From positions 868,001-932,000 of the forward strand of contig CANLMI010000001.1 of assembly GCA_947492375.1 (NCBI GenBank): 64,000 nt of DNA, given 5' to 3'. Of this stretch, positions 27,172 to 29,426 are shown one piece after another. Origin of the DNA: an uncultured Kordiimonas sp. (lineage in GTDB: Bacteria > Pseudomonadota > Alphaproteobacteria > Sphingomonadales > Kordiimonadaceae). The translations under genes and the position numbers were made by a program. The notes beneath the pieces were generated by a model, which was not told the origin of the DNA, did not search any database, and saw nothing but the letters and a program-made list of their open reading frames with translations. Position 1 is the stretch's first letter. Each line of letters begins with the position of its first letter.

Positions 27172-27603
27172 TTATGAATAGAGCTCTTTTGCCCGCGCCT
27201 CGAACGCATCGATCATACGCCGGGTCGCTTCATCAAAATATTTACGAATAGCGCTCTCTAAAAAACTACTTTTGAATTCCAGATCAACATCAAAATCAAC
27301 GATGCACGTACCATCTTCCTGCGGATGGAAGTTCCAGTGATTATGAAGATGCTTTAAGGGCCCTTTCAAATAATCAACATAAACCCGCGTTGGATCAATA
27401 ATAGTAACCCGGGATGTAAACCGCTCTTTAAACATTTTATAGCCGATTATAAGATCAGCATCAAAACGCCCTTCCTGAATATTATAAACGCGCGCGCCAA
27501 CACACCACGGCAAAAATTCAGGGTATGTTTTCACATCTGAAACCATATCAAATAATTGCTTTGCACTATAAGGAAGGTGTTTTTGCTGGCTATGTCTTGG
27601 CAC
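27172..27603 (-). CDS. ratA: RatA/Coq10-family START-domain protein
   Basis: A 143-residue single-domain protein of the polyketide cyclase/START fold, related to mitochondrial Coq10 and bacterial RatA. Typical motifs are YSAKQLFDMVSDVKTYPEFLPWC (residues 12-34) and the end IRKYFDEATRRMIDAFEARA. Coq10 proteins bind ubiquinone and support respiration; E. coli RatA was described as an inhibitor of ribosome subunit joining. In this PDH neighbourhood of an alphaproteobacterium the quinone-binding role is more likely. It is the last minus-strand gene of the pdh-lipA stretch and ends inside the shared terminator. Confidence 0.88.
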   Translation of the reverse strand: MPRHSQQKHLPYSAKQLFDMVSDVKTYPEFLPWCVGARVYNIQEGRFDADLIIGYKMFKERFTSRVTIIDPTRVYVDYLKGPLKHLHNHWNFHPQEDGTCIVDFDVDLEFKSSFLESAIRKYFDEATRRMIDAFEARAKELYS

Positions 27604-27669
27604 GGGTAAATCTTTTATTACTGAACAACGCTTATTACATAAGAGCGTACAGGCGATAAGGCAAGAGCC

Positions 27670-28440
27670 TTAAATGATATTAAAGATGGATAAAACCGTG
27701 AAGGCAGATGCAACCAATCCACTGACAGCCATATAGATAAAAACCGAGAGAATACTCGAAACAATCGTCATCCACCAACGCATTTCAAAAAACACATGAG
27801 CTGAAAAGATAAATAAAATATAGAAAAGGATATTTCTAAACATTTGATCGTAAGAGCCATAAACATATTGAGCCAAGACCAAAAATATCGAAAGGAAATA
27901 AGCATGGCCCATATAGAAACAAACAAAGCTTAATACTTCAGGATAATTCCGCTTAGCGCGGAAATATTGGTAGCGTAGGAAGAACGCAATCAAAGGTAAG
28001 GATATGAAAGAAATCAGGTTAAGTTTTCCCCGTAATGTTTCTCGAAGCCCTTCCATAAAAGTCAGTATTTTTTTATCCTGAGCTGTTTCGGGCGTTCCAT
28101 CAATCTGAACCGCGCTCTCCACAAAACTGTCGTGCGCCCCTGTAAGAACTGCGACTGCCAGATATACCGCAAACATAACGAAAAAATACCGAACGGGGTT
28201 AATGTAAGACGCACGGGAACCCTCAACATACTTCAGCGCTATTCTACCTGGATTTTTCGTGAGCCCGATGATTGTTTGCCATAGCTTGCTATCAAGCTCA
28301 GAGAGAGCGTTCGCAAAACCTTGCATGAAAACATTCAGTGTTAACCTGCTGCCAATATTGCGTTGCCCACATTGATGGCAATAGCCACCAGATAACGCCT
28401 CATGACAATTCAAACATTCATCTTCGATATGATCAACCAT
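27670..28440 (-). CDS. DUF3667 family zinc-ribbon membrane protein
   Basis: A 256-residue protein with an N-terminal zinc ribbon (C9, C12, C21, C24 in CLNC and CHQC) and four or five membrane segments in the C-terminal two thirds. The middle motif YVEGSRASYINPVRYFFVMF is the hallmark of DUF3667, whose function is unknown. The start codon at 28440 is preceded by a GGAAGGGGG ribosome site that is paired inside a long hairpin, so translation may be conditional. It is inserted between lipA and ratA on the same strand. Confidence 0.8.
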   Translation of the reverse strand: MVDHIEDECLNCHEALSGGYCHQCGQRNIGSRLTLNVFMQGFANALSELDSKLWQTIIGLTKNPGRIALKYVEGSRASYINPVRYFFVMFAVYLAVAVLTGAHDSFVESAVQIDGTPETAQDKKILTFMEGLRETLRGKLNLISFISLPLIAFFLRYQYFRAKRNYPEVLSFVCFYMGHAYFLSIFLVLAQYVYGSYDQMFRNILFYILFIFSAHVFFEMRWWMTIVSSILSVFIYMAVSGLVASAFTVLSIFNII

Positions 28441-28444
28441 AGAA

Positions 28445-28487
28445 AAGCCCCCTTCCCATTCCCTTAAAATGGAATAGAAGGAGGCTT
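28445..28487 (-). promoter_or_regulatory. Hairpin hiding the DUF3667 ribosome binding site, or lipA terminator
   Basis: On the minus strand AAGCCTCCTTC-TATTCC pairs with GGAAT-GGGAAGGGGGCTT, about 17 base pairs with one bulged base and two G-U pairs that exist only in the minus-strand RNA. The 3' arm contains the Shine-Dalgarno GGAAGGGGG, seven bases before the DUF3667 ATG; the 5' arm supplies the matching CCTCCTT. A short TTTTCT follows, so weak termination after lipA is an alternative. Confidence 0.65.
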
Positions 28488-28511
28488 CAGGTCAAGTGTA
28501 AGAAGTTTTAG

Positions 28512-29426
28512 CTATTTCGCTGCCGCCAATTTCTTTTCACGGTTTGCACGTAGTTTCGCAAAATCATCGCCGGCGTGATAGCTCGAACGTGTAAGCGGTG
28601 TTGCAGAAATAAGCAGAAATCCTTTCCCTTTACCCATCCGCTCATAAGCCTTAAACTCATCAGGGGTTACAAAACGTTCCAGCTTCGCATGACGCGGTGT
28701 TGGCTGAAGATATTGACCGATTGTCATAAAGTCGATATCGGCCATGCGCATATCGTCCATCACCTGACTTACTTCCATACGCTCTTCACCCAATCCAACC
28801 ATAATACCTGATTTTGTAAAAATAGACGGATTCACCTTTTTCACTGTCTCCAGAAGGCGAAGCGAGTGATAATAGCGGGCGCCAGGGCGAATTTTTGGGT
28901 AATTTCTTGGCACTGTTTCCAGATTATGATTGAAAACATCCGGCGCTGCTTCCGCAACCATTTCAATCGCACCGGGCTTGTTTCTGAAATCAGGAGTCAG
29001 AATTTCAATCGTTGTATTCGGGCTTGATTTCCTGATTTCCTGAATAACCTTCACGAATTGCATCGCACCGCCATCATCCAGATCATCACGGTCAACAGAT
29101 GTGATTACAATGTGATTAAGCCCCATAGCTGCGCATGCTTCAGCAGTATGAAGTGGCTCCAAAGGGTCAACCATCATCGGGCGGCCGGTTTTCACGTTGC
29201 AGAAGGCGCAGGCACGCGTGCATGTATCGCCGAGGATCATAACCGTTGCATGCTTTTTCGACCAACACTCACCGATATTAGGGCAAGCTGCTTCCTCGCA
29301 CACCGTATGCAGGTTTTTATCCCGCATCAATTTGCGTGTTTCCTGATATTCCTTACTGACAGGGGCCTTAACGCGGATCCAATCAGGCTTGCGCTGGAAT
29401 TGCCGTTTTTCTTCTGGCTTGTTCAT
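28512..29426 (-). CDS. lipA: Lipoyl synthase LipA
   Basis: A 304-residue radical SAM enzyme that inserts two sulfurs into octanoyl groups on lipoyl domains. Both iron-sulfur sites are complete: the auxiliary cluster cysteines C43, C48 and C54 ([12 protein letters not shown]) and the SAM cluster C69, C73 and C76 (CTRACAFC), with the C-terminal SSYHAGD motif giving the Ser ligand. Its substrates, the lipoyl domains of PdhB and PdhC, are encoded a few kilobases upstream on the same strand. lpdA lies 129 bases upstream. Confidence 0.98.

Follow-up and report, generated by a model that had tools for sequence, protein, structure and literature searches.

In the insertion sequences IS10 and IS50, transcripts that arrive from outside promoters form a hairpin that hides the start region of the transposase gene and blocks translation of the read-through RNA, and the element's own promoter starts RNA downstream of the 5′ arm. 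In phage T4, the ribosome binding sites (RBSs) of genes e, soc, 49 and I-TevI are hidden in hairpins on long RNA made from upstream promoters, and for e and I-TevI a nearer promoter, located in the DNA that encodes the 5′ strand, yields RNA that does not contain that strand (PMC3014915). The nearer promoters of gene e are late promoters, and about 100-fold less lysozyme is made from the structured RNA (PMC3014915). The DUF3667 gene described here would be a new instance of this known kind of system, the T4 gene e type. As in gene e, the Shine–Dalgarno sequence (SD) is hidden by a hairpin on the long RNA; here the nearer promoter is putative. Unlike gene e, the DUF3667 gene is chromosomal and alphaproteobacterial and has no known temporal programme; its candidate promoter has a sigma-70-like −35 box in place of a T4 late promoter, and its stem also ends in a T-tract. 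Unlike the IS10 and IS50 transposase genes, it belongs to no mobile element, has no inverted-repeat end and is fixed between lipA and coq10. No example of the same layout on a chromosome was found in a word-based search of a partial literature collection.

The locus was analyzed in a 64-kb window of a Kordiimonas genome (G000), for which Kordiimonas aquimaris was the closest named relative identified. There, the minus strand carries, in order, lipA (28512–29426), the DUF3667 gene (27670–28440) and a coq10-like SRPBCC gene (27172–27603). Both gene names in the original prediction were correct: the lipA product is a lipoyl synthase by Pfam (LIAS_N and Radical_SAM), and the DUF3667 protein matches PF12412 (57.5 bits), with an N-terminal CxxC...CxxC zinc-ribbon-like segment and a hydrophobic downstream part. 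The coq10-like gene was assigned from Polyketide_cyc (Pfam) and synteny, as it directly follows lipA in relatives that have no DUF3667 gene. The hairpin lies in the 71-nt gap downstream of lipA, the presumed source of read-through transcripts.

In the minus-strand RNA, RNAfold predicts a hairpin at 28444–28488 in which the 5′ arm (28471–28488) pairs with the 3′ arm (28444–28462) across a loop at 28463–28470. The 3′ arm includes the SD, GGAAGGGGG (28448–28456), which ends 7 nt before the ATG at 28440 and has a predicted SD:anti-SD duplex of −10.8 kcal/mol, and the 5′ arm, the anti-SD strand, includes CCTCCTT and lies within the spacer of the putative promoter. The original prediction had a stem of about 17 pairs, two of them G-U, with a single bulge. 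The two G-U pairs (U28482-G28450 and U28476-G28456) and the single bulged G (28457) stand, but the stem has 18 pairs, because a third G-U pair, the weak outermost G28488-U28444, had been left uncounted. Sequestration of the SD is confirmed, as 9/9 of its bases are paired. A 91-nt segment folds to −31.3 kcal/mol (z = −4.8), a value equaled by none of 200 shuffles, and the segment from TTGAC to ATG is likewise unusually stable (z = −3.9, P = 0.002). The isolated hairpin has a folding energy of −24.5 kcal/mol at 37 °C. The −60 to +3 region of the DUF3667 start has the lowest minimum free energy (−26.2) among 416 ORF starts (mean upstream value −9.5, s.d. 4.3), surveyed with a simple start rule that leaves lower ranks approximate, across 464 kb of the genome (the 64-kb window and another 400 kb). 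On the long (read-through) RNA, the SD has an unpaired probability of 0.08 and an opening cost of 19.7 kcal/mol, consistent with a stable helix. The hairpin and the occlusion of the SD are firm facts of sequence and folding.

The stem had been likened to RNA thermometers and translational switches. Like the ROSE and fourU thermometers, it holds the SD in paired form close to the start codon; unlike them, it is predicted to be far too stable to melt at growth temperature. When the RNA was folded at seven temperatures from 10 to 60 °C, the SD unpaired probability stayed at 0.07–0.08 (approximately 92% paired), and the absence of predicted SD melting led us to reject the thermometer. An Rfam search of the hairpin gave no family match at E values up to 1, thermometer families included, and with respect to a riboswitch aptamer there was likewise no Rfam match and no other conserved block in the lipA gap. 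A thermometer or ligand-gated translational switch, acting on a transcript that has both arms, would fit the full occlusion of the SD and the presence of a bulge; given the constant pairing, the −24.5 kcal/mol stem, the lack of an Rfam match or a conserved aptamer-like leader and a loop and upper stem that show no conservation among the relatives compared, it is most improbable. A TTGAC box described below suggests that 'conditional' expression, as originally proposed for DUF3667, would be determined by the promoter from which the RNA comes and not by an RNA-sensed signal.

To place the hairpin among relatives, DUF3667 was searched for in a set of 30 genomes of the family and lipA in wider relatives. 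The closest DUF3667 orthologues are in G009/G011 (proteins 46–49% identical), form one clade with this gene (support 95/93) and carry AAGCCTTTCCGA...GGGAGGGCTTTTTTT-ATG at the equivalent site. Pairs were compared directly across loci, because MAFFT could not bring the arms of G000, G009 and G014 into structural register. All 12 outer pairs are retained between this locus and G009/G011 (six unchanged, one altered on one side and five altered on both sides), and swapping arms between the two makes the fold less stable than the native hairpins by approximately 4 to 13 kcal/mol. In G014, GGGGAGGG pairs with CCCTCC in a separate, different stem that covers the SD (z = −2.0), and in G021 the SD is weakly paired (z = −1.6). 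The compensatory pairs in G009/G011 bear on covariation, which the original prediction had named as a check. In G017, G023 and G027, an SD is present and folding gave no significant hairpin, which counts against insulation. Overall, there is good reason to think that the pairing is conserved by compensation, from two independent sequences (G000 and G009/G011) with weaker support from G014. As a control, we considered another strong SD-covering hairpin of this genome, GGTGCCTTCC...GGGAGGTACC (G000:C1:587778-587809), which belongs to an SDR gene that lies after an acyl-CoA ligase gene; it has no T-tract and is not retained in the relatives examined, same genus included.

Adjoining the 5′ arm on its upstream side is TTGACC (28490–28495), which had been overlooked. 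TTGAC occurs in 13 of 14 lipA–DUF3667 gaps (three of them from close relatives of one another), compared to 1.5 expected from shuffles, in flanking sequence that has diverged, and it is absent from the post-lipA gaps of relatives that have no DUF3667 gene. Within this genome, TTGAC is commoner 50–79 nt upstream of ORF starts, with 22 of the 63 intergenic occurrences there. From these distributions, we infer that TTGAC is the −35 box of the DUF3667 gene. The expected −10 element (CCATTT or CATTTT, 28466–28472), placed by its spacing of 17–18 nt past TTGACC, is a weak candidate that matches TATAAT poorly; the −10 regions of the SD-bearing loci share no clear motif and fit no common consensus, and the 63 intergenic TTGAC sites yielded no genome-specific −10 motif.

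The distance between TTGAC and ATG divides the orthologues into two spacing classes. In five lineages (G012, G015, G016, G018 and G019/G026), TTGAC stands 29–30 nt before the ATG and an SD is absent, the geometry of a leaderless mRNA, although this spacing comes mostly from one clade. In G000, G009/G011, G014, G021, G027 and G017, the distance is 43–51 nt, with an SD. At least one alphaproteobacterium, Caulobacter, is rich in leaderless mRNAs, with 375 (PMC4117421). If the box-to-start distance of the apparently leaderless orthologues, 35–36 nt past the first T of TTGAC, is equal in both classes, transcription here would start at about 28460 (28459–28460). Such a start would fall inside the 3′ arm, so the gene's own mRNA would not contain the 5′ arm, and a promoter within the hairpin is probable.

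Folding of the two RNAs, in which the own RNA assumes this internal start, is consistent with a difference in SD accessibility. The predicted cost of opening the SD in G000 is 19.7 kcal/mol on the read-through RNA and 5.2 kcal/mol on the own RNA. At the five other SD-bearing loci, the corresponding values are 14.8 and 2.3 (G009), 12.8 and 2.9 (G014), 9.2 and 2.3 (G021), 11.2 and 1.1 (G017) and 6.1 and 1.4 kcal/mol (G027), a drop of 4.7 to 12.5 kcal/mol. Counting against insulation, the SD would still be partly paired on the own transcript of G000 (unpaired probability 0.39).

Directly after the G-C-rich stem comes TTTTCT (28441–28446), a short terminator-like T-tract, and the terminator role after lipA that the original prediction had raised receives a positive score, weak here and stronger in G009/G011. 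A score of the d'Aubenton-Carafa form gave +6.0 in G000 (moderate to weakly positive), +17.5 in G009 (with a T7) and negative values in G014 and G021. The order of G-C stem and T-tract in G000 and G009/G011 is that of intrinsic (Rho-independent) terminators, and the hairpin could be a plain intrinsic terminator of lipA that abuts the DUF3667 start by chance, its G-rich arm near the ATG serving as an SD. Such a terminator would account for TTTTCT here, for the T7 in G009/G011 and for both positive scores, but not for the relatives that have no DUF3667 gene, same-genus G001 included, in which lipA runs into coq10 with no hairpin after it and which indicate that lipA has no need of one. Orthologues of the 29–30-nt spacing have no terminator at this site, a simple terminator scan does not list the hairpin, and the T-tract, already short here, is lost in G014 and G021 although their SDs are still paired, so SD pairing is more widely retained than the T-tract. 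A plain terminator is thus rather unlikely on these grounds, and an ancestral lipA terminator was rejected because relatives without DUF3667 show no hairpin. Termination may be a second function of the hairpin in the G000/G009/G011 clade.

We propose that the region insulates DUF3667 against read-through from lipA, by combining a moderate terminator with an RBS lock that is bypassed by an internal promoter, as in T4 gene e; we regard the chances of this proposal as evenly balanced. On RNA begun upstream of lipA, the hairpin would form as soon as it is transcribed, and its G-C stem and short T-tract would halt part of the polymerases coming from lipA. On RNA that reads through, the 3′ arm would lock the SD, leading to poor translation of DUF3667. 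The gene's own promoter, with the −35 TTGACC beside the base of the 5′ arm and the −10 element at the loop, would begin RNA at about 28460 within the 3′ arm, leaving out the 5′ arm and keeping the SD reachable. We infer these effects on termination and translation from the modeled structures. Ribosomes that end lipA translation might instead open the hairpin, in which case DUF3667 would be made in proportion to LipA. The lipA stop codon does lie on the same strand, approximately 24 nt before the 5′ arm begins, but a ribosome positioned on a stop codon shields about 15 nt of the RNA beyond it, which falls short of that arm, and such coupling would leave the conserved TTGAC box unexplained; we consider it very unlikely.

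The leaderless orthologues may be insulated to the same effect through the lack of an SD on their read-through RNA. A broader proposal, which we put forward tentatively and would sooner doubt than accept, is that Kordiimonadaceae insulate the DUF3667 gene nested between lipA and coq10 in two interchangeable ways, either, in one clade, by a leaderless start or, in others, by an RBS-locking hairpin built into the promoter (which would also be a terminator in G000 and G009/G011), a conserved chromosomal form of the T4 gene e principle. If insulation holds, a bacterial chromosome would contain a compact promoter-plus-RNA insulator, in which one set of bases would do triple duty as promoter spacer, anti-SD arm and terminator stem, and a gene inside a housekeeping operon could still be expressed independently. 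A strong SD hairpin in a genome sequence could then not be taken by itself for a thermometer or a riboswitch, as it might be missing from the actual mRNA.

Several further features of the region were recorded. A repeat or mobile element was rejected as an explanation, as the 62-nt element is single-copy in this genome and matches elsewhere are short and at chance level. Roughly half of the genomes in the family encode a DUF3667 protein with the N-terminal zinc-ribbon-like CxxC...CxxCGQ segment between lipA and coq10, in some cases as two tandem copies, and more paralogues are found at other sites. One DUF3667 copy (G026:C246) has an internal TGA; together with two differing lipA–DUF3667 contigs in G026, this may point to a mixed assembly. 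Between the DUF3667 and coq10-like genes (27604–27669), TTGCCT and TATGTA, 17 nt apart, form a candidate promoter from which the coq10-like gene could be transcribed separately; if active, it would keep this gene on when lipA transcripts stop at the hairpin.
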